NCBI GenBank assembly: GCA_002189035.1
Contig: NEEC01000025.1
Span: 434,001-498,000, forward strand
Direction: 5' to 3'
Length of the DNA stretch: 64,000 bases
Source of the DNA: Utricularia gibba
Lineage: Eukaryota; Streptophyta; Magnoliopsida; Lamiales; Lentibulariaceae
The translations under genes were made by a program, and so were the position numbers. The notes under the pieces were generated by a model that ran no database searches, had not been told where the DNA came from, and saw nothing but the letters and a program-made list of their open reading frames with translations. Positions 1 through 64,000 of this stretch are shown here, piece by piece (the first letter of the stretch is position 1; the number at the start of each line of letters is the position of its first letter).

Positions 1-189
1 ATCAACACGGTGTCTCCAACGCGGAGACGATAAATAACTCAGAGATCGTAACTGCACCTTCGGCTGACCAATACATCCACTAAGATGCCGAGATGCAGCT
101 TGTTCCCCAGAGGCAGAAGAGACCTTTTTTGCCGCGCAGGACCCGAAGCCTCTCCTAAGGAGAGTGGATGCACCACTTCTTATATACAT
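1..189 (-). CDS. N-terminal part of a mitochondrial precursor, probably aconitate hydratase (runs off the window)
   Basis: From an ATG at 187-189 the minus strand stays open for 63 codons to the window edge. The protein begins MYIRSG and is rich in Arg, Ser and Ala with almost no acidic residues, as in a mitochondrial presequence. Near the edge it reads SSPRWRHRVD. Plant aconitases also start with MY- and carry a similar R-W-x-H stretch before their catalytic core, so aconitase (citrate to isocitrate in the TCA cycle) is my best guess. No catalytic residue is inside the window, so this rests on leader resemblance only. The frame is open for about 14 codons upstream of the ATG, with no earlier ATG. 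A caution: TATATAAG overlaps codons 2-4 and could instead be a TATA box, which would move the true start downstream. Confidence 0.45.
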   Translation of the reverse strand, partial: MYIRSGASTLLRRGFGSCAAKKVSSASGEQAASRHLSGCIGQPKVQLRSLSYLSSPRWRHRVD

Positions 190-1144
190 ACCTACCGAAC
201 GCCGCCAGTCACATTCAAATGATAAAAGGATCACCCGATGGCAACAAGATGGCGTTTTCTTCAATGGTGGGATCGGATGGTTCTCTAATCTCTTGGGTTG
301 TGTGCCGAGACGGCGAACGCACTCAAGCGGCGGATTAGAAGAGAAAAGTAGCTTGTGGGGGACACAGAAACGGCGATTAGGACCTTGAAAACCTTTTCTG
401 TTGCTTTTATTCTCAAAATGAACAAGGCCCACGACAACTCGCGGCTGCTAATTCTTAACCTGAAAATTCGAGAAAAGCGGGACAGTAAAGTTGGTCTCCG
501 ATCCCCATTATCGCCCTGATTCCTCCTCCGCTGCTCTAAAATTAGCCAAAAGAAATTTGACTTCGCATCTGAAGCTTCAACTAAAGTAATGCTTTCAGAC
601 TTCTATTCTCTTATCCACCTTGGAAGATCGCAAAAGGTGCCATTTTTCTTCTTGGTTGCCACGTGAACCAGGTAACCTCTGTTGTGATAATTACCCCGTC
701 GACGACAACAGAGCTAGTCATGAAAGGGACGTATTCAGCTTAAAAATGCTTCACGAAAGGCGTCAACTGGTTCAATTCCTCTCATTTTTTGTTTGCCAGC
801 CTTCAAACAAAGGATAATCTCCATGTCCATTCAATGGGCCTGCATTTTAACATAACTGAATGTTTGAGCCAGAAACGTCCTCCCCAGTTCCATCTGAAAA
901 CCAAGTTCTGAACTTTCCCCGAGAGGCATGCCACTGTCCGGTTTTTGTGAAATAATGGACATGAAAAGCTAAAGACAGGGCAGAACTACAGATCAACCAG
1001 TTGTATTCTAATACCACAACTGATACATGTATAAACATGCGTTCTTCCTTGATAATTTGACAGGCATACATAGCCTTCCGTTTCCAGTTCCCACAAAGAT
1101 AAGCATAGCATAGTTTTTCAGTATTCTATGGGTGTACCACGGAT
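190..1144. other. Intergenic: leader of the left-edge gene and 3' flank of the aspartic protease
   Basis: Nothing coding was seen. The part next to 189 resembles a transcribed leader of the left-edge gene. The part from about 850 to 1144 is probably the 3' UTR of the aspartic protease on the minus strand. Short open frames at 620-817 and 847-1071 have no recognisable composition or motif. Confidence 0.5.
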
Positions 1145-4674
<3,530 letters not shown>

Positions 4675-9886: not shown

Positions 9887-10674
9887 ATGCAACCTGGCCC
9901 CCAAACCTCAATCTTGAGTTTCCAGGAAAGCGGGATCCTTCAATGCCGCACCTGATACAAAGATACCAACTTTTTCCAGCCCCCAGTAGACCCTGAAATC
10001 GTTGAGTTGATATACCTGGTGGGAAGCAGAATAAAACCCTAATTGCGGGATATCGAGACGCAAACCCAGCAAGGAGTAGGACTGAAGATGGAATCTACTA
10101 GAAGCAACTCTCTTATCCCTCAATTCCTTTTACTGATCGAGATCAGACCTGCGCTGACTGTATTTTTTCCTCCACCACTTGTCCTATTCGGATTCACAGT
10201 TTTGAGGCAACTGCGTCTTTGATGTAAATCTTTTTACTGTAAGATCATGGATGGGTTAGCATCATCACGGAATCTGTAATTATCATATCTTAATTAAACT
10301 AATCGCAATTAGAAAAATCAAATACCAGTTGAGAATCACATAAATGAAGGAGCTTTGGGAAGTAGATGCAACAGAAGAAGGCGAATGCTTCGTTGAAAGA
10401 TTCTCAGGCTCCAAAAGGGTAGTTGATGCCACTTCAATGCCATTAATCCCACGTTTTTCTTATCTATTTGACTAAAATTATAAATAAATAATAAAATAAT
10501 AAAAAACAGAATATTCATATTTAAAAAATAAAAAGGGAAATCTTTTTCCATACCAAGTGTATTCTGTTGCATGTGTTGTGTGGCCAGGAGAAATGGAGGG
10601 GGAGCCTCCGCTTTGATGAAACCAGTTGTTCTCAAGCTTCTGCATCTCCCATTTCGGCCATCAGTGGATTCATC
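9887..10674. promoter_or_regulatory. Divergent promoter region between EBS and the ANTH gene
   Basis: This 788-bp spacer separates two genes read outward from it. The 9900-10130 part looks like the EBS leader on the minus strand. About 10440-10560 is AT-rich. In the ANTH frame, 10567-10674 is open without the family's start, so it is probably leader. No clear promoter element was identified. Confidence 0.4.
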
Positions 10675-12590
10675 ATGCCCAGTAAGCTCAAGAAAGCCAT
10701 CGGCGCCGTGAAAGATCAGACCGCCATCGGCCTAGCGAAGGTCTCCGCCACCAGCACATCCACCGATCTCGACGTCGCGGTTCTACGGGCCACAACCCAC
10801 GACGATCTCCCCATCGACGATAGATATGTCATCGAGGTTCTTCGCATTGTTTCCTCCAGTAAAATCCACGCGGCGGCGTGCGCGCGCGCTATCGGGAGGA
10901 GAGTCGGCCGAACTAGAAACTGGGTCGTCGCTCTCAAGTCGCTGATGCTCGTTCTCCGTATATTTCAAGATGGGGATCCTTATTTCCCTCGGGAGGTTCT
11001 TCATTCCATGAAGCGAGGAGCCAGGATTCTGAACTTGTCGAGTTTCAGAGATGCGTCGCGCTCCAGTCCCTGGGATTTCACCTCCTTTGTCAGAACCTTT
11101 GCCCTGTATCTGAATGAGAGATTGGATTGCTTTCTAACTGGGAAGTTACAGCGTAGATCTGTGAATGACTCTTCGCCATTGATGTACAGAAGCAGAAGCA
11201 GGGGTGCGAGAATTGAACCCATTCGTGATATGAAACCAGCCATGTTGCTTGACAAAATGGGGTGTTGGCAGCGGTTGCTTGATCAGGCTATCTCCACAAA
11301 ACCAACGGGTGCGGCTAAGACCAACAATTTGGTGTTGATGTCTCTTCATGTTGTGGTTCAAGAAACTTTTGGTCTTTACAAAGACATCTCAGACGGACTG
11401 GAATTTGTTCTTGATAGCTTCTTCCATTTACAGTACCAGAATTCTGTTGCTGCTTTTCAAATATGCCTCAAGGCAGCGAAGCAGTTTAAGGATCTCAGTG
11501 GCTTCTACACCATGTGCAGAGGTTTGGGAGTTGGTAGAAGTTCTGAGTACCCAACTGTGCACTCCATTTCAGATGAACTGATTGAGTCATTGCAGGAGTT
11601 CTTGAAGGATCAATCTTCGTTTCCCATGAAGTCCAGAAGCCATGTTATAGAAAAGGCGGATTCTTCTCCGGCTGCTAAGAATGGAGCGCCAGAGTTTGGA
11701 AGACAAAGCACGTCTCTGGAAGAGCTTATAAGTGCAACAGAGTCATGGACTGGCCCTGCAATATCTATTGATCTTGAGGATTACTCTGAACCACACCGAG
11801 AAGATGCATTCGGGATCAGTGACACCGGCTCCAGCCGATCACTACCGGTGTCGAGTTCCATCACGGATCTCATATCATTGGATGACTGGTCGGAAGAGCT
11901 TGAAAACAAATCCAAGGATCATCAAAGGGAACAGCCTTCAGAGAGCCCATTGCAAACTTCAGGTTCCATGAATTGGGAGCTTGTGCTGGCTGAAACTGTA
12001 CAATCATCATCATCATCACCTATGCCCCCACAAACGCCGGACACCAACAGCAGTGATATCTTGAAACATCTTCCGATGCCGGAGGAGAAGCATCCAAGTA
12101 TTTGGGATCTTCAGTTGATTCAAGCAGTCGTACCGCCTATCTCAAACACTACTACAAACACCTTCAGCACATTACCAGAAAAACTCATCGCTGCGACGAA
12201 CGGCTGGGAGCTCCCCCCGCAGCCGCAACACGTCAATATCACCACCGCCATCAACCCCCGACAACTGGGTGGGATCTAGTGTTATTCCAAGGGCCGCCAC
12301 CCAATCCTCCACTGGAAAAGCTACCAGATGCCCCTTCGAGCGATCATTATAATCCATTTCTGATGCCTTCACTGGATGTAGCGGTACCAGAGACATACCA
12401 TCAGCCAGCGACATCCAACTCACTTCCCACATTTTCCGTGCAGAATCAAGCCCAGGATTCGTTTACCGATGACCCCTTTGCTTGCGACGACGCCGCGTTC
12501 AGTAATCCGGTAGATGATCAAAATCTGGTGCTCCAGCAGCAGCTCTGGTTGCAAAACCAAAACAGGATTATGGCGAAGCATTTTATTTGA
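10675..12590 (+). CDS. ANTH-domain clathrin assembly protein (AP180/CALM type), with frameshift
   Basis: An endocytic adaptor that binds PtdIns(4,5)P2 through an ANTH domain and recruits clathrin at the plasma membrane. It is a single exon. The ATG at 10675 begins MPSKLKKAIGAVKDQT, the conserved family start. The ANTH domain covers about residues 25-330 (TTHDDLPIDDRYV near 45). A Ser/Asp/Glu-rich linker with repeated N-W/G-W-E-L motifs follows. The first frame stops at 12279, but another frame continues directly with TGWDLVLFQGPPP, a short NPF motif, a DPF motif and a Gln-rich end, and stops at 12590. That tail is typical of the family. One base appears to be missing in the C5 run at 12255-12259. 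With one base restored the protein would be about 638 residues. NPF and DPF are adaptor-binding motifs and lie past the break, so a truncated model would lose them. Confidence 0.9.
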
Positions 12591-12838
12591 TCTATGAAAT
12601 AAAAATAATGTTGGTCGTCGTTTGTCTACCCCAATGCAACAGGAAGAGCAATGTCGTAAAAGCAGAAACTTTTGACGTGCATTCAGATGAAAACAGATAC
12701 AACTGCAATAATACAAAAGAAAAAAAATCACAGTACATGAGCACAGAAAGCTTGGTTATGGTTAGTTCTAGGGAAACAAGTACAACTCAGTATAAGCTAA
12801 GTGGCATCGACTTTGCATTCCTGCTCTGGTCGTGGATA

Positions 12839-14648
<1,810 letters not shown>

Positions 14649-16221: not shown

Positions 16222-19200
16222 ATGGCAGAAGAAACAATCCCAATTCATACGGAGAAACTCTCAGATGAAATTCAGATCAACGGGACGGCCGTTCCGGTAA
16301 AACTCGTTCCTTCGATGATCTGATGATTTTCATTTTTTTCATATTTCGGTGATCAGGATTTGTTGATCTTTCTCAGATTGATAAAGAGAGCACGTCGATC
16401 AAGGAATTGAAGAAAGGGCAAGGAGAAGAAGCGCCTGTTAATGATGGCGAGATCATGAGTGTTGAGAAAGAGCGCACGGAAACTAAGGATCTGGATTCGG
16501 ATATGGATGAGACGACGAAGCGTGGGTTGTTGGAGTCGCGGGAGAAGTTTGAGGAGCTAGAGAAAGAACTGCAGAGGATTTCTGGTTTGTTGAAGGATTC
16601 TGAATCGAATAATGATCGATTGAAGGAAGAATTGTCACAGGCGAAGGAACAGCGTGAAGAAGTCGAGAAAAAATACGAAAAGCTCGAAGTTAGCAGCAAA
16701 AGGGTGTTGGAGGAGAAAACGGAGTCGGAGGGTAGGTACACATTGGAGCTCAAAGGTTTGAAAGAGGAATTGACAGCTCAAGAGGAAAAGCTCAAGGAGA
16801 TGGCGAATGTGAAAGATTCATTCGATCGCCTTAGCCTCGAGGTGGAAACCTCGAGCAGGAGAATTGAAGATCTCGAAGGAAAATTGCAAGTTTCAGCAGA
16901 AGAAATCCAGAAGCTTGAAGGGTTGCATAGGCAGAGTTGTGTACATGCGGAATCAGAGGCGAAAAAGGCCTTGGAGTTGGAAAAGTTGCTTGAGGAGGTG
17001 AAGTCCAATGCAAAGAATGTTGATGAACAGTTGCTTTCCATGAAGGAGAAGCTGAGAGCTTCTGAAGAAAACATTGCTGAGTATCAGAAGGTGGAGGAGG
17101 CGCTGGACGTTTCAAAGAAAGAACTTGCCGCTGTCCAGGGTGAATTGGAATTCGAGAAATCGAAAGTAGAAGATGCTGTGAAGAGGCTCGCTTCATCCGA
17201 AGATTTTGTTGTGGAGTTGAAGCGAGAATTGGAAGAAGCTAAAACTGCCGGATCCGAAGCGAGAGACAGAATCGCATCGCTAGAGGATCAGGTGAAATCC
17301 ACCAAAGAAAGCCTTCAAGAGAATGTTTCACAGCTTGAGGATTTGAAGTCAAAGCTCATAGAGGAGGCTGCTGCAAAGGAGAAGCTTGAAGAACTGTTGA
17401 ATTCTTATGAAAGGAATGCAAAAGGCATACAAGAAGAACTGGAGAAAGTGGTAAAAGAAAAACAGGAGCTAGAAAATGGTTTGCATGATCTGACCAAGCA
17501 TGCTGCTCAGATGAAGGAGATTTCTAGTGATCTGGAGGCTAAGCTGCAACAATCAGATGAGAACTTCCGCAAGGCTAATGCTCTTTTGGCTGAAGCAGTG
17601 GCCAACAGTAATGAACTCGAGCAGAAACTGAAAACTCTTGAAGAACATCACATTGAGAAAGAAAACGCTGTGTCCCTTGCAAACCAGAAGCATTCCGAGC
17701 TTGAGGATTTGCTGCGAGTTGCAAATACTGCAGCGGAGGAAGCTAAATCACAACTACAAGAATCTGAAATACGCCGTATTGGTGCGGAACAAAGAAACGT
17801 TGAGCTGGAGCAGAAGCTAAACTTGGAAGAATCAAAAAGACTGGAATACCAGAGGGGTTTGGAGGAGGCGTCTGAAAAATTGTCGGAACTGAATGCGGAG
17901 CTGGAGAAAAAAGATGTGGAGAAGCAAGAGCATGCTGCGAAGTTGCGTGACTTCCAATCAAAAGTAGAAGAAACTGAGGCTGAGTTGAGAAACTCATCAG
18001 CTCGTCATTCTGATCTTGAGACAGAGATAAAGAGTTGGATTGAGAAATGCAGTGAGCACGAAGGAAACGCGAATACAATTCAGCAGCGAATGCTTGAACT
18101 TGAGAGCTCAATGCAGTCGTCGGATTCCAAAGCTACTGAAGCAGGTCAAAAATTGATTGACTTGGAGCTACTTCTGGAAACAGAGAAGCTTAGGTTTAAG
18201 GAGCTTGAACAGCAGATTAATCTTCTAGAACAGAAAAACACAGATGTGGAAGAGAAGTCTTCTAATAGCAGGAAAAGAGTTTCAGAGCTTGAAGCAGAGG
18301 TTCAGATGCTCCAAACCAAAGCATCAGACCTTGAGGCTGCATTGAAATCTTCCATAGAAAAGGAAAGCGAACTGAATGAAAGGATAAATGCTGAGAGAGA
18401 AGAAAACAGAAGGGTAAAAGAGGATTATGGGGTTTCAGTCGAAAAGTTATCCGAAGCTGAAAATTTACTTGACAGCCTACGCCACGAACTGGATGCTTCA
18501 CATCGGAGGTTAGAAAGCATTGAAAATGACCTTAAGGGTACTGGATTGAGGAGAGCGAGGTCATGGAGAAGCTAAAGGTTGCAGAGGAGCAGCTTGAGCA
18601 ACAAGCCATAGCTCTGGCCAATGCAACCGCTACAAGTGCAGAACTTCGATCATCACACGAGATATCAACTCGGGATTCAGACTTGAAACTTCAAGAAGCC
18701 ATTGCAAATTTCACTAGTAGAGACTCTGAGGCCAGAGATCTGCATGATAAAGTGGTGGCTCTTGAAGGTCAAGTTGAAATTTATCAGCTGCAACTTGCTG
18801 AAGCAACTGAAAAGTTCGAGACCGCAAACAAGGAGCTTGATCGCGTCTTAGTAAAACTACAGTCTTCAGAGGCTTTCACCATGGAGTTACAGGAGAAGCT
18901 ACGAGCCATAACTGGACTTGTTGAAACTTATGAACATAAGGAACAGGAGTCCTCTCGATTGCTGAAAAGCAACGAGCTAGAACTTGAACAGAGTCTTGCG
19001 AAAATTAAGGATCTAGAGGGTGAGCTGGAGAGCCGCTGCAGTCAATTTAGAAAGGAAACTGAGTCACTGGTTGAAGACAACAAGAAACTTTCTCAAAATC
19101 TGGCATCCTATGTTTCAGAGCTAAGTGACCTGCAGGCAAAAGTGTCCATGCTTGCATCTGAGAAGGGAAGCACAGAAGAAGAGTTGAACTCCGCAAGAAA

Positions 19201-20212
19201 AGAAATTGAAAAACTGACTGCACAATTTGCATCTGAAGCTCAAAAGATACAATCTCAGGTAATAGCTCTGATCACTGCTAGAAACACCATTCTCTTTTGA
19301 AATACGTTCATTTTCTAACAGCATACTATCTCCTCACCCCTTAGATGAATTCGGTTCTTGAAGAGAAAGATTTACTTTCTGAGACATTTCAAAGCTCCAA
19401 AAAGGATCTTGACTTCATAATAATGGATCTCGAGGAGAAGCTGAAAGAACAGAAATCGGTTGAAGATTCATTGAAAGCCAACCTGGAAATCCTTAACACC
19501 GAAGTTTCCGAGAAAGCAGAGTTGCGAAAGAAATTGAATGAGCTTGAAGAGCTGTTAGCCAATTCAGAATCTACACTAAATGAAGAGGTAACTACTCCAT
19601 ACTACTACGCCTTTCTACATCCTTGAACTGTCTTTTCTATGCTGAGCACACGCACCCTCGCCATTTTTCATAAATGACCAACAGAGGGAGTTGAGATCCC
19701 AGCATCAGTCCGTGCATGAAGATGCTTCCAAGAATCACGCCGAGGAAGTCGAGAAGATGAAGAAAGACATTGCTTTTCTTACCAGCCAAACTAAAGATCT
19801 TGGGCTGAAGCTGCAACAGGCTGAGGCTCAAATCAAAGCAAAGGTCAGCTTCATTCCACCACCACTCCTATGTCTCAACTAGACTAGAAACAAACTATAA
19901 AATGAAAAATTATAAATTAACTTTCTTTTTAACCTCCCGGGAATTACCCACCCGCAGGATGATGCTAGGGGTGTTGCTATCAGTGAAAACAAGGATGAGA
20001 CTGTAAAATCTAGGGAAATAGAGTTACCCGCAACCGCCAGCCCTTCCAAAAGAAAGAGTAAAAAGAAGACAGAGACAGGAGGTTCGTCTTCCGATACAGA
20101 GATTCGCAGCAGCACTAGGAGTGAAGCGCGTCCATCCATGAGCTACCAGGTCATTCTTGGTGTGGCTATTGTCTCTATTATCATTGGCCTTATTCTTGGG
20201 AGAAGATACTAG
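16222..20212 (+). CDS. Long coiled-coil tail-anchored protein (PICC / myosin-heavy-chain-like), with frameshift
   Basis: Five exons (16222-16296, 16377-19258, 19345-19587, 19685-19843, 19958-20212) encode about 1,204 residues, almost all heptad-like Glu/Lys/Leu-rich coiled coil. The N-terminus is MAEETIPIHTEKL. The C-terminus has a basic SPSKRKSKKK stretch followed by one hydrophobic helix (VILGVAIVSIIIGLILG) and RRY, a classic tail anchor facing the cytosol. This layout matches Arabidopsis PICC (At2g32240 family), an ER-anchored coiled-coil protein linked to immunity. I use that by resemblance only. In exon 2 the frame breaks near 18545: one frame reads ENDLKGTG and then fails, while the next frame reads EESEVMEKLK and continues. 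One base is missing, and exon 2 is 2,882 bp, one short of a multiple of three. Confidence 0.88.
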
Positions 20213-20471: not shown

Positions 20472-21721
20472 TCAGGGTGGTAAATCTGGTGTTTCCCAAG
20501 CGGAGGCTGTGAGCAAAGGGGAGTTCTTCCATCCCATCTTCAGCCATCCGTTTTCCTCCACCAAAGTATACCCGCGCCATGGCATCATCCCCAGGAGAAG
20601 GCTGGCCTGCGCGGAGGCGTTACCCCCGAGCGACACCCGCCGGAAACCTAATCCCGCCATCGCTTTCCCCACATCTCCACCTCCCCATCTCGCTTCTTCA
20701 GAGACAGAATGTTCCGTATTTCGCATCCAAACAACTGCTGTTCCACCGTGTGTCTGTCCAGACTCTCCGGTGCCGACACGTCGCCTAAGGCATCGAACAG
20801 CGCTGAGTAGTAATGGAGGGCGCCGATGAATCGCCGGAGGAAACCGCCTTCTCCGCTGTTGCTCAGATCGTATGTTCTTTCGACGATTGTGATGAGTTTG
20901 GGTTTGATCATTTTGAGTAATCTGAAAACCCCCAAGTCGCTTCCGGTCATGTCGTAGAGACTGTGGTGCATCCAGTGGACGATTACTGTTTCGCCGATTC
21001 GGACTTTGAGTTGATCGATTTCTGAGATGTTTCCGATTTTCCCTTCGACGGCGTGGAAATGGAATGGGATGTTTACGGCGCCGGCGAATTCGGCGAGGCG
21101 GAGGCCCGTTGAGTCGAGGAGGTCGAGAGAGGGGCCTAGGCCGGTGATTCTTAGGGACTTCAGTTTTCGTGGCTTGGAAGCCAGGATTTGGAAGAAGCCC
21201 GGCCACTGGAGCCCCTGCATGATGTCGAGATCGATGACGTGCACGTGATCGGCCCCGTCCACCGCCTGCTGGATAGCCTGGTTGGCCGTGAAGTGGGAGA
21301 ACTTGATCATCGGCGTGATTGAGTTGTACGTCTGGAAAGCAGCGAGGACCTTCTGGTAATGAGATTTCCACAGAGACAGCGGCAGCGTGGGCAGACACGG
21401 GACCGGAGATTTCCCGATTACGTAACACGCAATCACCCGCGACGATATAGCGTCGGCGAAGTACGCGCCGACGCGTTGAACGGAAGACCCAAAGGGAGAA
21501 GAAAGCTCGAGTATCTCCGGAAGAATCTGCGATGCATCGAGAAGGTTGTCGGCAGCCAGGCACTCGGCGCATCTCAGCAGAAGCTGGACCAATCGCAGTC
21601 CCGCTTCCTCGGAGTCCCTCTCGAACCCAATAGCGGCGGCGCGATGGCGCTTGATTGGATCAGTAACAGAGATGCCCTCGTCAACTTCATCCTCAATCGG
21701 GCGCTTGCCGGCAGAAGCCAT
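20472..21721 (-). CDS. SCL23: GRAS transcription factor SCARECROW-LIKE 23, with frameshift
   Basis: A single-exon GRAS regulator, closest to SCL23, which works with SCARECROW in endodermis and bundle-sheath patterning. The N-terminus is short ([14 protein letters not shown]). LHR I starts near residue 42 ([20 protein letters not shown]). The VHIID motif reads [20 protein letters not shown] and the PFYRE region follow, and the end carries [15 protein letters not shown] and the SAW motif LLTASAW. The first frame stops at 20648, after [11 protein letters not shown]. The other frame carries [18 protein letters not shown] through to the stop at 20472. One G is apparently missing in the run at 20667-20670 (C on the plus strand). 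Restoring it gives about 416 residues, the family length. The gene is convergent with the coiled-coil gene. Confidence 0.92.
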
Positions 21722-22049
21722 GGAAACTGGGGAGGAGCTCCGTGGCCTGAGAGAAGTGTAAGCAGAAGCATTCGCATATCTCGTAATTCGGTATTGTAGT
21801 GGAAGGGAAGGTGAAAAGGAAAAGGAGTGTTATTGAGTTTTGTCTGATAGGGAAAAAGGCAATCGGAAAGGCAGGAGAAAATGACAGAAGAAGCTTGAGG
21901 GGCTGTACCCAGAAATGATGGCGATGGTGAAACACATGCTACCAGATATTACTTATAAGCGCATGGACTGAAGCCAAGTATCCAAGATGGGTATGAAGTG
22001 CAATACAACTGAGAAGGAAAAGCTGCTTCTGCTTCTGATGCAGAGAGAA
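21722..22049. promoter_or_regulatory. Promoter/leader of SCL23 and 3' flank of CYSTM copy 1
   Basis: The 328 bp between two minus-strand genes. The 21722-21935 part is pyrimidine-rich on the minus strand, as expected for the SCL23 leader. The rest is the 3' UTR of the CYSTM gene. No distinct element was recognised. Confidence 0.4.
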
Positions 22050-22443
22050 TCAGAAGCAAGCATCCAGCACACAGCAGCAGCACAGACCAGCACAGCTCCA
22101 AAACAAACAGAAGATCATCTGTATCAGCTTCGATACTCTCCCATGGCGATATATTAAAATAATAAAACAAACAACATTCTTTTTTGACTACTGACCAGCC
22201 CCTCCAGAAGCCGTCTCCCTTCAGCCGAGAGTAGCGGGAGTTGCAGCCGGAACCTGCACACCCTCGTCGTCTTTCGCTGGATAGCCCTGGGGCGGCGGCG
22301 GAAAAGCCGTGTTTTTCTCCGCCTTGGATACGGTGCCTGGTAAGGGGAATTCGAAATCAAACACCCTGGGTCACTTCAATAGATTCGCCCTTCTGAGAAG
22401 TTGGAAGCTTGGGTTTACCTGGATTCCGATCGTAGCTATTCAT
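22050..22443 (-). CDS. CYSTM family protein, copy 1, with frameshift
   Basis: A short cysteine-rich transmembrane-module protein of the kind anchored in the plasma membrane and often stress-induced. Three exons: 22419-22443, 22196-22336 and 22050-22095. Exon 1 encodes MNSYDRNP. Exon 2 has the Pro-rich PPPPQGYPAKDDEG typical of the family and, in a different frame, KGDGFWRG. Exon 3 gives CCAGLCCCCVLDACF then stop, the diagnostic Cys module. The exon 2 halves are out of frame by one base near 22217-22226, so a single base seems to be missing. With it the protein is about 70 residues. Exons 1 and 3 have exactly the same lengths (25 and 46 bp) and the splice phases match those of the neighbouring copy at 23284-23680, so this is one of a tandem pair. 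Confidence 0.82.
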
Positions 22444-23283
22444 GCTGATCTGGTACCCCACCGGAGGCACAGACTTGGCGCTCTCCTTTATGCGTAAGCA
22501 AGGAGGAGGAGCTGCGGCGTGGCGTGCATAGCATATACGCGTGTGCATGGATGATTGGGTCGCGGTTCACCTAATCCACTGACCATCTCGATCGCCAATC
22601 CCCGGACCCGGGACCCCAACCAATGTCAACCCTATTGTCCTTCTCCACTAAAAACCACTCCATCACTGCTTCCGTGTAATCGATGTAACCCTCTAATATG
22701 TGTTTATAACCTGTGCACATCTTAACAAACATTCAAAGTTTGTATTAAATCAATAATCTTATATAATAAACTGAAAGTGAAATAATTAAGTATATAATAA
22801 AGATTCAAAGTTTGTATTAGATTAACAATCTCATATCATGAATTAAAAATAAAATAATCAAATATATAATAAATTATAAGTTTTATTTTATAAATTTTAT
22901 TTAATTATTTTATATGATTATCTTTATATTTTTTATGTATTTAAACTTTTTTATCCTATTTACCAAATCTTTAATTTCATGGTTTTGATAACCCAAAATT
23001 CTAAAGAAAAATTGGTATCATTCAACACACCATGAATTAATTTTATTAGAATAGAATAAAACTGAAATACCAAAACATCAAAAATAGAATCATAATATCA
23101 AATATATCATCATAAACATAATATCTATGGGGGTTTGCACAAATGGAAAATGGTGACTCTAAGAAATGTGATACGTAAGAGAAGGCAACGGGACACGGCA
23201 GTAGCAACGGGGAACGGGGAATATGAAGGAAAACAGGCAGTGGGGTGTGGGAGCCGTGTGCAGGTGATCCGTCTGATGAGAAC
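22444..23283. other. AT-rich spacer between the two CYSTM genes
   Basis: The 22444-22640 part is the probable upstream region of CYSTM copy 1. From 22680 to 23110 it is strongly AT-rich and includes a degenerate tandem repeat. No coding sequence was seen. Confidence 0.5.
22731..22874. repeat. Degenerate 72-bp direct repeat, two copies
   Basis: Copy 1 (22731-22802) and copy 2 (22803-22874) both begin ATTCAAAGTTTGTATTA and both end around TATATAATAAA, with diverged middles. The copies are contiguous with a 72-bp period. This looks like a local tandem duplication. No terminal inverted repeats were seen. Confidence 0.7.
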
Positions 23284-23680
23284 TCAGAAGCAGGCGTCCA
23301 GCACGCAGCAGCAGCACAGCGCGGCACAACTGCAAAAACCAGACTCGAGATTAACATACCACACAGAGTTGGCGTTTTCCTAGAGAGTTCTCTTCTCGCT
23401 ACTCACCATCCCTTCCAGAAGCCGTCGCCTCTGGACTTGGTTGCGCGCCGCTTACCGAATTCCTGCGCCGGTGCTTGCTCCCCTTCTTTCGCCGGGTATC
23501 CTATCGGCGGCGGCGCGGCCACGAAGGCAGGGGTGGTGCTCTGCGGCAAATAACTCGCTGCACAACCAACAACGTAAATCCCCTCGGCAACCCAACCAAA
23601 TCAAAAGAAAAAAATGAAAAAGAACCGCGAGTGGTTCCGGATGACGAAAAAGTACCTTGATTCTGAGCGTAGCTACTCAT
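23284..23680 (-). CDS. CYSTM family protein, copy 2
   Basis: Three exons (23656-23680, 23407-23557, 23284-23329) join in phase to 73 residues. The N-terminus is MSSYAQNQASYLPQ, followed by a Pro-rich PPPIGYPAKEGEQ region, then KSRGDGFWKG and the terminal Cys module CCAALCCCCVLDACF. The small size, Pro-rich cytosolic part and Cys-rich membrane segment define the CYSTM family. Members dimerise at the plasma membrane and often respond to stress or pathogens. This copy is intact, and its neighbour at 22050-22443 has the same exon structure. A TATA-like element lies about 80 bp upstream. Confidence 0.88.
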
Positions 23681-24541
23681 GTCTGACCAGAGGAAGAAGG
23701 AAATCTGTCTTCGATCGGAGACGGTATGGCACGATGATAGGAATACCCAGGGGCCGTGTCTATATATAAAACAAAAACGACGAGAGGAGGAGGAGGAAGC
23801 AACCTGGAAGTCGGCGACTCCGCGTGGGGAGAAAATACGCCGATGGGAGTTGAATTACCGTTTCTCGTCGTCAACAACTTCAGGTTCAGGTAAAGACCTA
23901 CTCCAATCAATGTGCAGGCGGTGCTGACTTCAAACGGAATTTTACTAAAGATGGAGGACCATCCATCCAACTTAAACGAGATTTATCAATTTTCAAGGGA
24001 CCTGTTGTTAATTTCTAAATTTTAAAAAACGATTTCCATATTTTAATAATAAGAATAATATTTCGTAAATTAATATATTTGTTAAAAAAGATGATTAATA
24101 ACAGTGGATTCAACCTCTTGAGCGTGTTTATTCATAGAGCTGATGCACCCAATACGATGATGAGGAAGGAAGGTGTGCTTCTTCGCATTCTCCACCTTCC
24201 ATTTCTTTGATATATCATTTTTTGTGTTTGGCTCTCATTTCTCGGTGGTTATTCCAGGAATATGCAATTAGCAAGTAGAGTCCTTTTGAAGTTGATCTCC
24301 ATTCAACGCGGTACGTCTTGAGTTTCACCCTGTTCTCCTCCAAAAAGTATCGGTTTCGTGGTGGGTCAGGGGTGAATGCTTTCGTGTTCTTTTTGGATTG
24401 AAGATCTGTAGGCAAAAGCTGGTTTTTTTATTCGTGGGAACGAGTTCTTTTTTTCCAAATTACATTGATCGTTTCGTTGTTGGATCTGGTGGGTTCTCAT
24501 TCTTTGCTACGTTGATTTTGAGGTAGGTGGAGGAGCAAGCG
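23681..24541. promoter_or_regulatory. Divergent spacer between CYSTM copy 2 and the OTU gene
   Basis: An AT-rich centre (24010-24100) separates the CYSTM promoter from the OTU leader. A likely 5' UTR intron acceptor (TTTTGAGGTAG) ends near 24526, 15 bp before the OTU ATG. No other feature was seen. Confidence 0.4.
23761..23767 (-). promoter_or_regulatory. TATA box of CYSTM copy 2
   Basis: TATATA on the minus strand, about 81 bp upstream of the ATG at 23680. This fits a short leader of about 50 nt. Confidence 0.5.
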
Positions 24542-26163: not shown

Positions 26164-27816
26164 AACTTGCTGAGATGCATCAACCCCATTTTGTATTGTA
26201 TACCATATGCTCCTTTTTGGTTCTTCACACCTCACACACACATGTTTCACATGATGTCTCTTGTTTAATCACTGTAATTATTGAATCACAGAGATTTTTG
26301 AACTGCGGTTGTTTTGTTCAAATGACCATTTTTCTGAATCCTTTGATATATTGCATGTGGGCTTGAAGCGTGGCCCAAATGATGGTGAAATCTAAACGGG
26401 CCGTCAAAGTAAGAATAATACCTAGCCCACCCATCACTATTTGGAGGCCTATCAAGGAGAGAAGGGCTACGTATTATTATTCGGTTTAAAATAATAATAA
26501 ATTACAAAGTATCCTTCAAAATTTGTGTATTTTCTATTTATTTTAAACATATTTATCAAATATAATATTTTTCTAATTATATATTTATAAAATCTATATA
26601 ATAAATACATATTCAACTTTACTCACATGATATCTATTATTCAAATGAATTATTAATTAAAATCTCCTATTAACCACCCTATAATTGGATGAGGTTTATA
26701 ATTAATCAATTGTCAACGTATTTATACATTATAGAACTAAATAATATATTACAATATAAATTATTTATTATTGAAAAAAGCTCCGGTTGTTTAAAACCTG
26801 CCGCCGGCCGCAACCAACGAGTATCCAGACATCAATACGGGACCTGCCGGTGTAATGGACGGACATTATTGCACGAACTGAGCCAGTTACACCGAATGTG
26901 GGTTGGCCCGGGAGGCTATTCAACACTGCGTTAAACTGCAATATGTTGGTCAATTTTGGATTTGTTTTTTAGGGAGAAATTGGTTTGATCGAGGCTTGGG
27001 TGGTGGACACGTGTGCTCCAGGCTGCGGGTAACCCGGGTGCCGAGAGGGAGAAAAAACGAGAGAATAAATGAATGCATGGCTTTGAGCTGGTCAAGATTC
27101 TTTCTGAGCATCTGGGTTTTGAGGTAATCTCATTTCATGGCATTTTCTTCATTTGAAACTATTCGCATCCGCGAAGACATAACATCATAGGTGAGCCGCG
27201 CGCTATATGTGCGTATTAATGGTTTCCCCCCTAGGATGGATCGTTGACTTTGCCCGCGTTATATTTTGACTTTGTTCTTGTTCATATTAACTACATGCTA
27301 GTGATCATTCTGCTCTGGGATGAGTTGATTCTTTTGTTTATTGGTTAAAGTTTTTGTCTTTTTGATTTGGGGTAATTTGAATTGGAGATGTGTAGCCGAT
27401 TCTTTGAAGGATTTGGATTATGATTGTGTATCCCTGTTGGTGATTCTGCCGTTATCTTTAGGAGAAAAAAAGAGCTTCCATTTTCAGGGAGGTGGCAGTG
27501 CTTGCGGATTCAGTGCATATACATCTCAGAGCCTCGAAGACTTGAGGTACGTCATCTTGTCCATCTTCTTCTGTTTTCCTGATTTTGATCATATATAGGC
27601 GTTGACTCCATGGCGTCAAAGTTTGATGTTCCTGATATCGATCTCTTGATTTTTAGTTTTGATATTTTTGGAAAAGTTTTAGTTATCTGTCTTGTGAGGA
27701 AGTAATTTAGGCTCTTTGGTAAACTCGAATGTCCTGTTTCACTCCCTACGTTGATGATGTGTGTGTATTTTTAATGGTGGAAGGGCAAGGAAGTTGAATA
27801 AATTACATCTATAGTG
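26164..27816. other. Spacer and leader of the epimerase gene
   Basis: 26460-26770 is very AT-rich. 27000-27130 is GC-richer and may contain the transcription start of the epimerase. A plausible non-coding exon ends at GACTTGAG/GTACG near 27547, and an acceptor (ATCTATAG) ends just before the ATG at 27817. I found no gene in the first kilobase. Confidence 0.4.
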
Positions 27817-29589
27817 ATGGATTACACGGGAATACGGCATGGAAACTCGACTCGGAAAGTTCTAATTGTCGTTGGGTTAATCGCCATTTTCATCTTCACG
27901 TTTAAGGGATCGCCCACAAGCTCAGTTTCTAACAAAGTAGGACTTCTCATCATCTTTACACTCTTCTTAGAAAGAAGCTTCTTAAGGATTTCTGTTCTGC
28001 TTTTCAACCTGCAGTTTTCTGAGCATGAGGTTGGTGTAACTCATGTTTTGGTTACCGGAGGTGCAGGCTACATAGGATCTCATGCTGCTCTCCGATTGTT
28101 AAACGATTCCTATCGCGTAACCATTGTCGTATGTCTTGATCAAACTGAGAACATTGCACTATTACTTGTATCCTTCGAGTGTAATACATTGTAAGATTTT
28201 ACAGGACAATCTTTCTCGGGGAATATGGGTGCTGTTAAAGTGTTGCAAAGACTTTATCCGGAGCCAGGAAAGCTCCAGTTCATAAAAGCTGATCTTGGAG
28301 ATGCTAAAGCGGTATTCTTGGCTTGGATTCTGTTCTTTTTGTGATAAGCATCATTTTTGGTTCCAATGTCTTATCTGAACTCTATGCATCAGATAAACAA
28401 GATTTTTGCTGCAAATGCTTTTGATGCTGTCATGCATTTTGCTGCTGTTGCCTATGTTGGTGAAAGCACAGCCGAACCACTTCGGTACGCCGGTTTTTCC
28501 CTCTGCCATTCAAGCTACTCTTCATCTCATGCTCCATCATGCTTAATATTTTCAGGTATTACCACAACATTACCTCAAACACCTTGCTGCTTGTGAAAGC
28601 AATGGCAGCTCATGGAGTGAAAACCTTGATATATTCGAGTACTTGTGCAACCTATGGGGAGCCGGAGAAGATGCCTATTACAGAAGAAACTCCCCAGGTG
28701 AGCCAGTATGAAGTTTTTTGCTCTGTTTTCAGCCTCGCTCATCAACTTTCCTCGAACTAGGTTCCAATCAATCCTTATGGGAAAGCTAAGAAAATGGCTG
28801 AGGACATTATAATGGACTTCTCAAAAACATCAGACATGGCCATCATGATTTTAAGGTGGCAGGTCCTTCTCCCTTGCCTGTTTGTAAGCTGAGTTACTGG
28901 TCACATGGTTAATATCTGCTGCCACAAAAAATTGTATCAGATACTTCAATGTCATCGGCTCCGATCCGGGTGGACGGCTGGGTGAAGCCCCAAGACCGGA
29001 GCTCAGAGAACAAGGACGGATATCAGGAGCATGCTTTGATGCAGCAAGAGGAATCATTCAAGGACTCAAGGTACTTAATACTTCCAGTCTAACCATTTTG
29101 AGAAGAAACAAGACCACTTCTCAAGTATTGAGATCATAGATCAGAGGAAGAGATTACAACACTCCTGATGGAACTTGCATTCGAGACTACATCGACGTCA
29201 CCGATCTGATCGACGCCCATGTGAAAGCCTTGTCTCATGCCAAGCCCAAAAAAGTCGGGATCTACAATGTTGGCACAGGAAAAGGTTGGAACAACACTCG
29301 GGTCTTTAGCCAAACAAGGAGATGTCTTTACATATCTTGGATCATTTCATTTGCAGGAAGCTCGGTGAAGGAATTTGTTGAGGCGTGCAAGAAGGCAACT
29401 GGTGTGAACATAAGCATCGAATACCTCGATAGGAGACCAGGAGACTACGCACAAGTATACAGCGACCCATCCAAGATTTGGAATGAGCTCAAGTGGAAAG
29501 CCAAGTATACCAATCTCGAAGAAAGCCTATCAACCGCATGGAAATGGCAGAAAACTCACAGAAATGGATATGATAGCAGCGCCCAGTGA
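27817..29589 (+). CDS. UDP-D-xylose 4-epimerase (UDP-arabinose 4-epimerase, MUR4 type), with frameshift
   Basis: A Golgi enzyme interconverting UDP-xylose and UDP-arabinose for cell-wall polysaccharides. Nine exons (27817-27936, 28015-28128, 28205-28311, 28393-28484, 28556-28697, 28761-28855, 28941-29070, 29140-29284, 29357-29589) encode about 392 residues. The N-terminus has one membrane helix ([15 protein letters not shown]), a type II Golgi anchor. The NAD-binding motif is [11 protein letters not shown]. The catalytic YGKAKK (Tyr, Lys) and SSTCATYG follow, and the end reads [11 protein letters not shown]. In exon 3 the frame breaks after DNLSRG: one A is apparently missing at 28222-28223 (family sequence would need GGAAATATG). 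The exon is 107 bp, one short of in-phase. The start aligns with an internal Met of MUR4, so an upstream coding exon is possible. Confidence 0.92.
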
Positions 29590-37674: not shown

Positions 37675-38852
37675 ATGGAGGCCAGGGTCTTCTCGTTCAT
37701 CATCGGCATCCTCCTCTTCGCCGCCGCCGACACCGCCTGTGCTCACAACATCACCCGTATCCTCGCCGCACATCCCACCCTCTCCACCTTCAACCACTAC
37801 CTCACCGTCACGCACCTCGCCGCGGAGATTAACCGCCGCCGCACCATCACCGTCTGCGTCGTCAACAATGACGCCATGGCCGAGCTTCTAGACAAGCACT
37901 ACACGCTCCCCACCATCAGAAACATCCTATCGCTTCACATCTTCGCTGATTACTTCGGCTCCAAGAAGCTCCACCAGGTCTCCAAGGGCAGGACCACCAC
38001 CTCCTCCCTTTTCCAGGCACCGGCGAAGCCTCAGGAACCTCCGGATACGTTACCATCACGGATATGAAAGGTGGAAAAGTTGGATTCACCCCTGTAGACA
38101 GCGATTCCAACCAGCCGGTGGCCACATTCGTTAAATCTATTCACGAATTGGCCTACGATCTCGCCGTTATACAGATCAATCATATTTTGACCTCCCCTGA
38201 AGCCGAAGCTCCGACGGCAGGTCCGGGAGATTTAAATGTGACCACCATCATGTCGAAACAGGGTTGCAAAGAATTCTCCGATCTGATCACCGAGCAAGGA
38301 GTTGAAGAAACATTCACGCAGAACCTCCAAGGCGGCCTAACAATTTTCTGCCCTTCCGGTGAAACTCTCAAAGACTTTATGCCCAAGTACAAAAATCTCA
38401 GCGCCGATAACAAAACTGCCCTTCTCCTTTACCACGGCATTCCCATTTACAACTCTTTAGGAATGCTGAGATCCAGCAACGGCCTCATAAGTACGTTGGC
38501 CACAGAGGGAGTCAAGAAGTATGATTTCACCGTTCATACCGACGGCGATGACGTCAAGATAAAGACGAAGGTGGTGACGGCGACCATAACAGCCACATTG
38601 ATTGACGAAGATCCCCTCGCGGTGTTCAAAATCAACAAAGTTCTGCAGCCGACTGAGCTATTCAAGGCTGCCCCTGGGCCGAAATCCGCGAAATCGTCTT
38701 TCGACGATGACTCGGCCGATGGCCCGAGCTCCGATGACGAGGACGATACGTCGGCGGATTCGACCAGCGATGGTGGAGTTTCCCTCCTCCGCCGTTGGCT
38801 TTTCACGGCGTTGTTCACTTCAGTCCTTGTCACTCTTCTCTCCCCATTGTGA
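37675..38852 (+). CDS. Fasciclin-like arabinogalactan protein (FLA1/FLA2 type), with frameshift
   Basis: A GPI-anchored cell-surface glycoprotein. It is a single exon. A signal peptide (residues 1-23) is followed by HNITRILAAHPTLSTFNHYL, the start typical of the FLA1/FLA2 group. The first FAS1 domain contains RRRTITVCVVNNDAM and NILSLHIFADYFG. The second FAS1 domain runs from DLNVTTIMSKQGC to about KVLQPTELFKAAPGP. A Ser/Asp-rich spacer and a hydrophobic C-terminal GPI signal (WLFTALFTSVLVTLL) end the protein. The usual Pro/Ala-rich AGP stretch is short here. The first frame stops at 38067. The next frame carries GYVTITDMKGGKVGF and onward to 38852. One base appears to be missing at about 38016-38019 (GGC/ACC), which would restore QATGEASG and about 392 residues. 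Confidence 0.92.
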
Positions 38853-44969: not shown

Positions 44970-46442
<1,473 letters not shown>

Positions 46443-49464: not shown

Positions 49465-49472
49465 TATATAAA
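49465..49472 (+). promoter_or_regulatory. TATA box of ATG8
   Basis: TATATAAA, 235-242 bp upstream of the ATG8 ATG. It implies a leader of about 210 nt. Confidence 0.6.
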
Positions 49473-49706: not shown

Positions 49707-50703
<997 letters not shown>

Positions 50704-51241: not shown

Positions 51242-54200
51242 CTAAAGCTGAAGCGCCAAATCCGGCTGCTGGGGATCCACGAGGACGCCGGAGGGCCCTC
51301 CGGGTGAACCTGAGGGCTGGAAGCCGATATTGAGATCCGGAGGAAGGGATTCCTGCTTCTGTTTAGGGTGCATTTGTGGGCTGATGCTCCGCCATGTAGG
51401 CTGAAGTTGGAATCTGGATAAATCGCCACCCAGCTGCGGATAATTCATCGCTTGGTTGCGGAAGTGTGCTCCATTTACAACAGGACCTTGTGGAACGAAG
51501 GCATGGAGTGGAGAATTGTTCCTCTCTAACTGAAGGGCCTTTCCTCTGACTGAAGCTAACTCTCCAGGGTACTGTGGTTGCATATTCCGGGGAGAACTCA
51601 ATGGGGTGTTGATGTTTGCCAAGGGAGGTCTAAATCCAACAGTCCGCATAGGGATCGGTGCGCCGGAAGCCGCAGCTGTCGATGCAGGAATGCTGCGCAG
51701 TAATGGGGCTGAAGAGAGACTCGAATTGGCTGACCACGGTCTTTGACCCTTTTCAGCAAGCATTCTTGTGGCATCATCAAGAACCTGCCCCGTTCCTTGC
51801 TGATAGCAGCCTGCTGATGTAGCCTTACTGATTGATGAGCCGGAAATATTTTCGATATCCAGTCTACCAAAAACTTTTCCGTTCGGCAATGCTCCAACTG
51901 CAGTTCCATAATCAGGTTGCTTCAAATTTTCAGCCATCGAAAAGGCACCTTGCCTTGAAGCCAACTCCTTTGGAGATTCCCTTTCTGTGCTCCCCCGATT
52001 TTGCCTTGGGACCATACTTTCAGCAGCATTTGGATTGAATGTTGGAGGGAGTCCTTGTCTTAACTGTTTTGAAACCCTTTGATCAGTAAGAGTAGATGCC
52101 CTGAATTGGGAAACAATATGCTGGTGACCCATGCTAGCAGAACCACCACCAGCCTTGATCTCGGAGGACAAGAATAAAGAGCTCATATCAGAAGGATTCA
52201 CCCTCGTCGACGGTACACTGCCAGAAAAACCAGAGGTGCTACACGAAGTGTCACCAGAACGATGAAAAAACGGTAAAGATGCCAAATCAAGGTTCCCCTG
52301 CAATGAAACTAACACAGGGTTATCATCATGCTTCTTGGGCTCAGGAGCAGGCTTTGCTTTGGCAAAAAATGGTGGTTCTCTAGTATTGGCGTTTTCCATA
52401 ACCGGCACAGGAGTTGGAAGAGGCTCATACTCTCCGACCCACCCTGGGCCAAACTCGAAACCTTGAGGAAGTGCTTGTTCAATTCTCTTAGAGCTAATGT
52501 TCCACACTACAGACCCTAAAGTCGCAGCAAAACGAGCTAAGCTCCTTGCATACGAATGATCAGAATATAGTCCAACCTGATTCCGAAAAATAGGAATGAT
52601 GCTTACATGACTGCATGTTGATAACTTGAAATGAAATGGGCATAAAAAATGACATACTGGAATCAGTTGCTTGCCTTCACCATCAGAACTTGAGAACATG
52701 GACCATGAGCAAGCTGCATTACAAGCAAGTGATATGTCATATGTTTCACGGCGACTTACATCCTGCATCGGCGACTTCTTGCCAAACCTAGGCATCAGGC
52801 CCTTTCCTGGAAAGACCAAATGAGTGGTCAGGGTATGCGATGTTAAAGCATGGGCACATATTGCCGTTATATATGGTACCTGGAAGAGATTCATCTCCCT
52901 TGTCTAAACTATTCTCATTGAACGAATAACTTCCAGCAGGATGAACGTCAGCATTACCATGTCTCTCACATTCAGGATTTTGGGATGCATTTGAAACATT
53001 CCGCAGGTCAGCACCCATGTGCATTGCAGATGATGACATGTTGGAGCCAAATGGTTCTTGCGTACGAATGATAGATGCGTGAACCAGTTTATTCACAACA
53101 GGCGTCGTCCTTAGCGTTTGCTCAGGTTTAACGGATTTGTCAGCACCTTCAACTTTCAAACTCAATTTCTCGAACTTCCTTGTGGCCAACTCTTTTATTG
53201 AACGCGCCTATGAGATATAGAGAAGGGAGGTATATTTCACCAAGCACAGAAAATCAACAAGATAGCTCCTATTATACCTGCTTGTGGTAGATAGTATCGG
53301 GGGCATTGTATTCCATTGCATTTGTGCAGATAAGGAAGACATCACCCTGCACGGCCGTTTTGTTTTGGAAGGGAATTACTCATATTGAAGTTCATAGCCA
53401 CCATATCCAGATGATAATAAAGAAAGCAAGCGGACTGAAGCTAACTTCAGTCCGGAGAAAGTGGAGAAATATCACAGGAACCTCAACTTGACAACCATCA
53501 CGAAAGAATGAAAATAAAGAAGCATTCGTTACCTCAAACTGTTCCAATGTCTCATACGATCCATTTGCCAACTTTTTTCTCACAGTGGCGAAATCCATTG
53601 GGTGCTTTATTACATCGTGGTAATCAGGAAGCTGCCTCAAAAACAATCCATCAGGCATATAAATGCAAAAGGATGATCAAGCAGACAAAAAGTTGGATCC
53701 AGCATACCTCTTCAGGATCAACTGGTTCCGCATACACACCGTAGATGTCTTTCCTGGTTAAATGGCATAACAGGAGGTCGCCTTGGTCAAAAAAAAAAAA
53801 AAAAAAAACAATACAAAAGAAGAAGGATGCCAGAGTGTTAAAGGCATACTTCTGAAGTTTGTCCAGAATCAACTCCAAGGTTTTCTTATCAGGCAACGGC
53901 TGCCCTTGCAAAGCATCAGACGGTGTCGCTGTATTATACAAAACCAATAGTTGGAACGCTACTTCTTTCCTAATTCATCAAAGAAAGCGAGAAGACAAGA
54001 ATTATCAAACCTGGACACGAGTCTTCTCCTCCGCGCACGGGCTTCTTCTTCGTAATCTGCCAACAATTGACAAATATTCTTCTTAAATTTCCCAAAAAGA
54101 TAAAAGTACGGAAACACCATAACCTACATTCAGTTGGATTGTGGAACCCAGAAAGTACAACGTAACCCCATTCCTCCCCCACCCTAACAGGCATAACAAG

Positions 54201-60816: not shown

Positions 60817-62043
60817 TTACCGATTTTTCAATGGGAGAGTTGGTGTAAGAATGGAGTTTTCTTCTGATATTAGGACAGTTCTGTTTGATAATGATACAGG
60901 GGGCGGAGGATCATGTTGTTCCTCCCTAATGTTCAGACTATCGGAAATGAATAGAGCTCCTTCCTCGGTGTTGATCGAGGAGGCTTCAGTTTCTGATTCA
61001 TCATTCACGATTGGTGAACCAGAGGACGCTTCAGGGTGGCGTGAGGATGATTCTTCGTCATCGTTTCCTCTGATCTTAAACCAATCTTCCTCATCGCCCC
61101 AATTTGGGAAATTTGAATTGGAGCCGATTCCGGTCAAGTCCTGGATCCTGGTCGCCGGAGAATCTGAGGATGAGGAGATCGCGGTCGCAGATTCTGGATC
61201 CTCCTCCAAATCATCCCAAAACGCTTGATCCACAACACTCGTCGGGGATTCTCTGGTGGGCACTCTGAACTTACCGGAATATTCGTCGATGAACGGGTGG
61301 TACAGTAGCTCCCTCGCCGTCCACCGCTCACCGGGGTCTTTCATCAAGCACCTGGCGAGAAAGTCCTTGGCGGTGTTGGATAGCCAATCAGGGAGCGCCA
61401 CCGTGTCGCCGGAGTGCGCTACTCTGTAAAGAACAGAGATGGGATCCTTGATCTCCGGCCAGGGATTAGTTCCCGTCGCCATTTCTATAACCGTGCAACC
61501 CAGAGCCCAAATATCCGCCGCATAGCCCTGTGTTTCCCCGCGAGCAACTTCCGGCGCCATGTATGCCGGAGTTCCGGCTATTGCAGATTCGGCTTTGGAG
61601 CCCCATTTCGCACACCCGAAATCGCCGATCTTGACATCTTCGCCGCCGATCAAGATATTCTGCCCTTTGATATCGCAGTGCACAAGCCCTTTCCCGTGAA
61701 TATAGTCCAGTCCCTTGGCAATCTGGTGAACGTAAAACTGAATACTCTTCTCATCGAGGGATCCCCCGCGGCTCCTAATCAGATCTGAAAGCGTGCCTCC
61801 GGCGACGTACTCCATGAAAAGGTTAAACACGGGTTTTCCTCCATGGTCCGTCACATCGGAACCCAGGCACTTGACGACGTACGGAGAGCACAGCTCCGAC
61901 ATCACTCGCTCCTCATTCCGTAACCAACCGGAGGAACAGAGATGAGAAGATTTGACGGCGAATACTTCTCCGGCGACGGTTGTTGCGCGGTAGACGGTAG
62001 CGGAGGAGCCCCGGCCGATGACCGGACCCCGTTCCCATTCCAT
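60817..62043 (-). CDS. MAP kinase kinase kinase of the MEKK-like MAPKKK17/18 group
   Basis: A single-exon Ser/Thr kinase of 408 residues, the usual size and structure of the intronless MAPKKK13-21 clade. The start MEWERGPVIGRGSSATVY at 62043 is chosen because the Gly-rich loop begins at residue 10. A longer frame upstream would need a non-ATG start. Catalytic Lys31 is in FAVKSS. The catalytic loop is VHCDIKGQNIL (HCD rather than HRD, normal in this clade), then DFGCAKW, the activation-loop GTPAYMAPEVARGE and DIWALGCTVIEMATG. The C-terminal 150 residues are acidic and Ser-rich and contain EEDWFKI. Arabidopsis MAPKKK17/18 are induced by ABA. The ACGTG-rich promoter here fits that, but the exact orthologue is not resolved. 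Confidence 0.94.
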   Translation of the reverse strand: MEWERGPVIGRGSSATVYRATTVAGEVFAVKSSHLCSSGWLRNEERVMSELCSPYVVKCLGSDVTDHGGKPVFNLFMEYVAGGTLSDLIRSRGGSLDEKSIQFYVHQIAKGLDYIHGKGLVHCDIKGQNILIGGEDVKIGDFGCAKWGSKAESAIAGTPAYMAPEVARGETQGYAADIWALGCTVIEMATGTNPWPEIKDPISVLYRVAHSGDTVALPDWLSNTAKDFLARCLMKDPGERWTARELLYHPFIDEYSGKFRVPTRESPTSVVDQAFWDDLEEDPESATAISSSSDSPATRIQDLTGIGSNSNFPNWGDEEDWFKIRGNDDEESSSRHPEASSGSPIVNDESETEASSINTEEGALFISDSLNIREEQHDPPPPVSLSNRTVLISEENSILTPTLPLKNR

Positions 62044-62115
62044 CGCGGAGAGATTTTTCAATTGACTCCTCCAATGAATTCCGTCCGCCTTAGGTGCCCG
62101 AAGAAAGGAGGCGGG

Positions 62116-62123
62116 TATTTATA
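62116..62123 (-). promoter_or_regulatory. TATA box of the MAPKKK gene
   Basis: TATAAATA on the minus strand, about 75 bp upstream of the ATG at 62043, implying a leader of about 45 nt. Confidence 0.65.
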
Positions 62124-62142
62124 AAAGTCAGTGGTTTTGATT

Positions 62143-62463
62143 ACGTGTACGCGAGTTCAGTTTAACAAACGTGGACCTCGCGAGCACAGAAGAATCTTCC
62201 TGGCCTATTCCTCTCCCTTTACACAATTCCCGCGAATCGAGTAAACGCCGCTCCGTCGGTGACCGCCACTCGCCTCCAGAATTACTATGTTTTTAACAAA
62301 ATAAAAATACTATTTTAATGAGCTTTCGGGGTGCGCAACGCGACACGTGGACGCGGGCGAAAGCCATGTAGATCTGCATCCGGTGGCAACAGCTTGTCCT
62401 AACTCCTAACACGCGAACCCAAGTAAAGACACGTGAGGAAAAAGAGAGCGGTGCAACGTGGCA
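62143..62463. promoter_or_regulatory. Cluster of five ACGTG cores (ABRE/G-box like) upstream of the MAPKKK
   Basis: ACGTG cores occur at 62143-62147, 62169-62173, 62345-62349 (within CACGTGG), 62431-62435 (within CACGTGA) and 62456-62460 (within ACGTGGC). ACGTGGC and CACGTGG match the ABRE consensus bound by ABF/AREB factors. All lie within about 420 bp of the ATG. Confidence 0.6.
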
Positions 62464-64000
62464 CCCGGCGAGGCGGCGCGTGTAGAAGGTAGGTCTCGAA
62501 ATGGAGGAGCCGTCGCCACGTCGACGGCAGAGCGATGGGTCGGAGGATTCTGCCAGGTGTGCCTGCCGCCATTATTCACTCCCATATTAATTCAACACCT
62601 GTCATGGTATTGTTGTACTTTTTACCATTACCACCCCTCCCTCCTATTTTCGAGTTGGCACATTTACTGCGACACCCCCTTGTTATCAAACATGTATTTT
62701 TAGTTAAATATTACCTCGTGTGCTTAAGTATTTTATGAGTTTTATTAAACAAATCAAATTTCATAAGAATGAATTATAGTCTTATTCTATTTAAAACAAC
62801 ATATATCAAAATATATGCAGCCCCTCCCTCCCTCACTTATGAATGGGCCTGGCCTGCCCAGACAGCGACACACCAAACTACTGGAATTAAATGTTGCGTT
62901 TTCAATTTGTTTGTTTTTTAATGGTACAAGATTCACATTGTACTGTCTGTCAATTATTGTGTTAGGACACGTGACATGGCATGTGTGGGATGAATGAGCT
63001 ACGCTACAGCTTGGTGGTGTTATAACTCTGTAGCACTGAATGGGGAGGTCGGCCCTAAAATCCGGTGGCCGAGAATTCAAGTTGAGGGGGGAATCTCAAC
63101 GTGCACCATGCTATCCTATCCTATCGCTGCTATTTTCTTTTGTTTCACATAATGTCAATTGTTTTGTAATTAAAATATAATTTTAATGACGTAAAAATTT
63201 TAGTTTTACTCAATCAAACAGTTTTAAAATGTGGGTCGGGGTCGGGTCACCAACCCTCCTCGCCCTTTGAACTTTTCAATAATGTGGGCCAGAAGTCCCC
63301 AGGAGGGTGGATATGGAACCTGTAAGAACCTTCCCGTTTCCTCTCCCCCCCAACTCGACCCACTTCGTTGACCGCTGACTCCACCCAACTGGGCCCGACC
63401 TGCGGTTGACCGGCTTCAGAAGGGTGGCTGGTTGGGCCATTATGGTTCGATCCAATTACTTTATTATTGGGCTTCGGCCCATTCTAAGGAAAAGGGAACC
63501 CCACCCTCGTTTTTTATTCGGAATTAAATATTATTATTATTTATTCCGAGTCGGCCGCGACATCGAGAAGAAGCACGTTGTGCGGTCGGAATGAGTCCAT
63601 TTACAGGCCACAAAAATAGGGGGGTGGGTCTTCTCGTGCTTCCAGGACCACCATATAAAATAAATTACAAAGGCGTGGCCCAATTTATTCCAATAATATT
63701 AATAAAGTAATCAATTAATTAAATGTGGTCTTGAATCCCACGCCACTCCCCTTCATAATTTCATTTTACTCAAGAAAAGTGTGACAAAATTGAGGCTTTG
63801 ATTGCAGCAGTGTGTTGCTCATGATTAAAATATTAGGGTCGCCTTTGGTGGCCTATAAGATTATAGGGTTCATTTTGATTACCATCTCCTCAAGAGCACC
63901 ACAAATTCTAGGCATAGGGCCGTACGTTATACGTAATTTAATAATTTAAATATTTTATATAATTTATTTGTAAGTATTTTTACCCAGGGCATGTAAATGT

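Follow-up and report, generated by a model that had tools for sequence, protein, structure and literature searches.

Seven genes in a 64-kb stretch of plant DNA (C480:434001-498000, the whole of which is called the window here) appear to have lost their reading frame, and the question raised by the locus is whether the plant or the assembly is at fault. In a preliminary description one frame break had been assigned to each of the seven genes, all of the breaks being deletions of one base, several of them in runs of four to five identical bases, and residual assembly error had been proposed. According to the evidence given below, the breaks are almost certainly residual consensus errors of long-read assembly and not mutations of the plant. 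The assembly holding the window comprises 100.09 Mb in 516 contigs, some of which are multi-megabase, and contains duplicated blocks; those facing the window as homeologs are C375:2.1755-2.198 Mb and C328:0.734-0.812 Mb. The C375 and C328 blocks, together with paralogs on C451 and C413/C4, were used as internal references, and the homeologs were compared by HSP filtering and ORF-to-DNA searches. Chaining of all-frame tblastx matches between the window and its homeologs was dropped owing to the noise from aligning antisense frames.

Frame breaks in the window

A single frame break in the coding sequence was placed in six of the seven genes (ANTH, PICC, SCL23, UXE, FLA and RING-H2), and the seventh, CYSTM copy 1, was found out of frame with a break that could not be placed. 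The -1 sign claimed earlier for all breaks holds for the six placeable sites, for five by comparison with relatives and for ANTH by the reading frame, since the window copy was one base short (modulo 3) against a homeolog or paralog in all placed genes except ANTH. As to the runs of four to five bases, the claim stood for ANTH, SCL23, RING-H2 and UXE, all with G/C runs, and did not for PICC, FLA and CYSTM copy 1.

The SCL23-like GRAS gene (20474..21720, minus strand) is broken at 20667-20670 (G4 on the coding strand), and its homeolog has an extra base relative to the window at 20667. The Pfam GRAS profile was matched from 1 to 316 in one frame and from 317 to 374 in the next with zero positions lost, and dN/dS (0.12-0.20) was near-equal on either side of the break. 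For the intronless fasciclin-like arabinogalactan gene (FLA, 37675..38852, plus strand), the break at ~38018 corresponds to GGCACC in the window versus GGCCACC in the C328 homeolog (C versus CC). The two Fasciclin halves were matched in two different frames by the domain search, and dN/dS was 0.13 upstream of the break and 0.12-0.14 downstream. The UDP-xylose 4-epimerase gene (UXE, 27817..29589, plus strand) is broken at GGGG 28218-28221, beside which the paralogs on C413 and C4 are both one base longer.

The RING-H2 (NIP-like) gene (44978..46250, minus strand) is broken at a C5 run (coding strand) at 45198-45202. There the window exceeds the homeolog by 14 nt (15 minus 1), and its frame switches between 45220 and 45196, while the homeolog at C328:785-788k keeps a single one; the CAICLQ half and the second half of the RING, split by a short intron, both read cleanly. 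The PICC-like coiled-coil gene (16353..19300, plus strand) is shifted by -1 at ~18541-18550, where short runs only are present, against a paralog (C451:5500-5509k) with a single frame across the site; its dN/dS was 0.22 upstream of the break and rose to 0.47 downstream, so that constraint is less clear for this gene.

The ANTH-domain gene (10672..12590, plus strand; domain match E 5.5e-73) has CCCCC at 12255-12259, where the ORF 10525-12279 continues in the next frame as the ORF 12057-12590 with a stop at 12590. A homeolog or paralog of the ANTH tail was sought and none useful was found, and GC by codon position gave slight support for the continuation of the frame. A break at this C5 run is thus proposed with moderate confidence from the reading frame and a weak GC-by-codon-position signal, as the weakest of the six placeable sites.

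In CYSTM copy 1 (22030..22443, minus strand), the start (PPPQGYPAKDDEG) and the end (KGDGFWRG) of exon 2 are out of register by one, which confines the break to the stretch from ~22209 to ~22260. Positions 22217-22226 do not form a homopolymer, and a search for close relatives found none able to place or size the lesion. A tandem CYSTM pair occupies 22030-23700 of the window (minus strand), with a clear C375 homeolog for copy 2 alone. The AT-rich stretches at 22797-22980 and 26519-26680 of the window are dispersed repeats with ~20-30 genome matches at 70-93% identity.

As far as the exons could be followed by eye, no break was visible in the aspartic protease, HISN4, MAPKKK-like, PAO, CYSTM copy 2 and bromodomain-like (51-55 kb) genes, and no firm +1 break was found in the window. 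An apparent +1 at 52857 (52760..52960, minus strand) in the bromodomain-like gene was rejected as a coding break, being a probable intron (GT...TTTCCAG) around which both copies can splice in frame. An apparent homeolog break at 13049 was likewise rejected as a short intron with proper ends in both copies.

Sequence context and recurrence across the assembly

Every one of the firm coding breaks in the large contigs was -1, with six of them in the window and some ten in other places; a sign test gave 16/17 as -1, the one exception being the 52857 site that was later shown to be intronic. G/C runs of at least 4 bases contained 4 of the 6 placeable window breaks versus 1.75% of coding bases (binomial 1.4e-6, to be taken as a guide because gap placement within runs is ambiguous), and 9 of all 16 breaks at the time of counting. 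The PICC and FLA breaks have no run longer than two bases, and some EF-2 sites also lie outside G/C runs of at least 4.

Control genes were picked by function, before their frames were looked at. PRP8 is a core spliceosome protein, and the loss of PRP8 or of PURL (FGAM synthase) would be lethal. PRP8 was found once in the genome, and a -1 in a C run at C412:~508.3k comes between ...LLFAP and RPFNMRSG..., two parts that directly follow each other in the PRP8 proteins whose structures are known. PURL, also found once and intronless, has a -1 at GGGG (C1:~2,606,917). SF3B3 and CARB were unbroken apart from introns, and DDB1 was dropped as a control because it has too many introns for scoring without a reference.

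Among the EF-2 copies, the one at L044 is intact, L042 has one -1 and L041 (C451:6032301-6035200) has three; L042 and L044 are on C304, where two copies lie ~4 kb apart and in opposite orientation. Very low dN/dS values are a feature of several EF-2 copies. In all four segments of L041, dN/dS was 0.007-0.045 at a dS of 0.6-1.1, a level that could not be sustained by a gene long out of frame. The relatives of the window genes are broken as well: two -1 breaks were found in the homeolog of SCL23 and one in that of FLA, all at sites other than those of the window, and the C4 paralog of UXE has one.

In the control genes six breaks were counted over ~28 kb of coding sequence (the sum of the scored stretches), or ~1 per 5 kb, and in the window six or seven over ~24 kb (an estimated coding length), both rates being drawn from small samples. 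The break rate of the window is similar to that of the controls and the window is not special; the error problem is assembly-wide and not local to it. The comparison of C480:498-528k with C328:812-842k as a further rate sample gave no sense-strand break in a scant amount of aligned coding sequence. A gene for an hnRNP-like RNA-binding protein is present as 95% identical tandem copies in the joined C480:498001-528000 stretch (at 16.9-19.3 kb and 24.7-27.2 kb of it) and is single in the homeologous block; at 95% identity the pair was rejected as an error yardstick for being too old.

One locus assembled twice

SNU114 is present on two contigs. On the 2.1-Mb contig C142 its frame of 1,040 codons is unbroken; the other copy is on C151, a 34-kb contig that repeats part of C142. 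The stretches C151:1-3600 and C142:1983501-1987000 (L043 and L038, respectively) were compared, and 0 mismatches and 9 indels were found over 3,425 bp, every indel being located in a homopolymer or a dinucleotide (TC) repeat. Eight of the nine indels are bases missing in C151 (at G5, G5, T3, a TC repeat, T5, C5, T9 and T7), and the remaining one is an extra T. In a longer comparison, over 18 kb, the main contig C142 was also short at one G5/G4 and one A13/A12. The substitutions over the 18 kb were a lone one at 11.8 kb, the only mismatch of the first ~17 kb, and a cluster of seven at 17.5-18.1 kb, at the alignment end. Most of the errors lie within the first 3.6 kb of C151. Indels without substitutions, as found at SNU114, are the signature of sequencing error and not of divergence. 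The redundant pair C151/C142 is a direct, read-free yardstick for the error spectrum, and such contigs could be used for calibration of the error rate.

Origin of the breaks and consequences for gene-loss studies

Taken together, the four of six breaks in G/C runs, the breaks in single-copy PRP8 and PURL and the SNU114 indels lead to consensus error as the explanation. At runs of identical bases, chiefly G/C of ~5, the consensus would lose one base, and genes whose frame is whole in the plant itself would thereby appear shifted; with errors spread over the assembly at ~1 per 3-5 kb coding, the observed count would be expected in a gene-rich 64-kb window. As the cause we infer undercalling of the PacBio type left after self-polishing. 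PMC12007338, for example, describes errors in long-read assemblies that fragment genes. Homopolymer errors of self-polished PacBio (CLR) assemblies resemble the present ones in being single-base homopolymer deletions, without substitutions, by which many genes are apparently truncated; the difference here is that some sites are only two-base runs and that G/C runs dominate the coding sample. According to PMC5793159, the Utricularia gibba PacBio assembly was made with HGAP at about 88x and has a contig N50 of 3.4 Mb, and the HGAP procedure given in that paper includes polishing with Quiver from PacBio reads only. The genome of the window is like that assembly in its multi-megabase contigs and duplicated blocks.

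Real pseudogenisation, with redundant copies lost after whole-genome duplication and frameshifts fixed or segregating in the seven genes, is very unlikely as the general explanation. Gene loss does occur in this genome, as is evident from the homeologous blocks on C375 and C328 and the decay of two C375 homeologs, those of UXE and PICC, and several of the affected genes are duplicated, so that the loss of any single one is tolerable; one of two duplicates being out of frame is also what fractionated plant pseudogenes after whole-genome duplication look like. However, FLA and SCL23 would each need to have lost both copies at once, the identical lesion type is found in single-copy PRP8 and PURL, and the break in the window UXE would come on top of a syntenic partner that is already heavily decayed. 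Constraint is kept on both sides of the breaks (0.12-0.14 for FLA, 0.12-0.20 for SCL23 and 0.007-0.045 for EF-2 L041), and dN/dS does not move towards 1 in these genes, PICC being less clear. That real pseudogenes would carry mixed lesions, as had been argued beforehand, was borne out by the C375 homeologs of PICC and UXE (at ~2260-2520 and ~5760-6500 of L006), in which insertions, longer gaps and stops are found next to conserved neighbouring homeologs, whereas the seven window genes have one frame break each with constraint intact and no stops, insertions or larger deletions were seen in them.

It is about equally improbable that most of the breaks are introns that went unrecognised, or exon ends that have diverged, with no base missing. 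The frame changes at 52857 and 13049 did prove intronic, and ANTH and CYSTM copy 1 are without a close relative across the site, but at the other five sites the relatives align straight through with a net -1 (modulo 3), leaving no space for an intron, and the GRAS profile is split without a lost position. Still less credible is programmed ribosomal frameshifting, by which a genuinely short base would be corrected at translation. The recurrence of breaks in conserved genes and in slippage-prone homopolymer runs is in keeping with it; the sites share no common stop or slippery motif, unshifted copies exist (EF-2 L044, UXE on C413 and SNU114 on C142), and one locus is found with and without breaks on two contigs (C151/C142). 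To our knowledge, there is no such widespread frameshifting system in plant nuclear genes.

The earlier proposal of assembly error is thus upheld by the same -1 in single-copy PRP8 and PURL, the SNU114 indels without substitutions, the constraint on EF-2 L041 and the homeologs broken elsewhere. The artefacts may conceal the genuine, recent loss of one duplicated gene, which we consider doubtful; CYSTM copy 1 would be the likeliest of the seven because of the lack of a homopolymer at its site, the lack of a placeable lesion and its intact tandem neighbour. Small-genome plants are subjects of gene-loss studies, and since this assembly has ~1 artefact break per 3-5 kb coding, counts of lost or truncated genes would be inflated by the artefact, as would estimates of fractionation after duplication and claims of a broken PRP8, EF-2 or similar gene.
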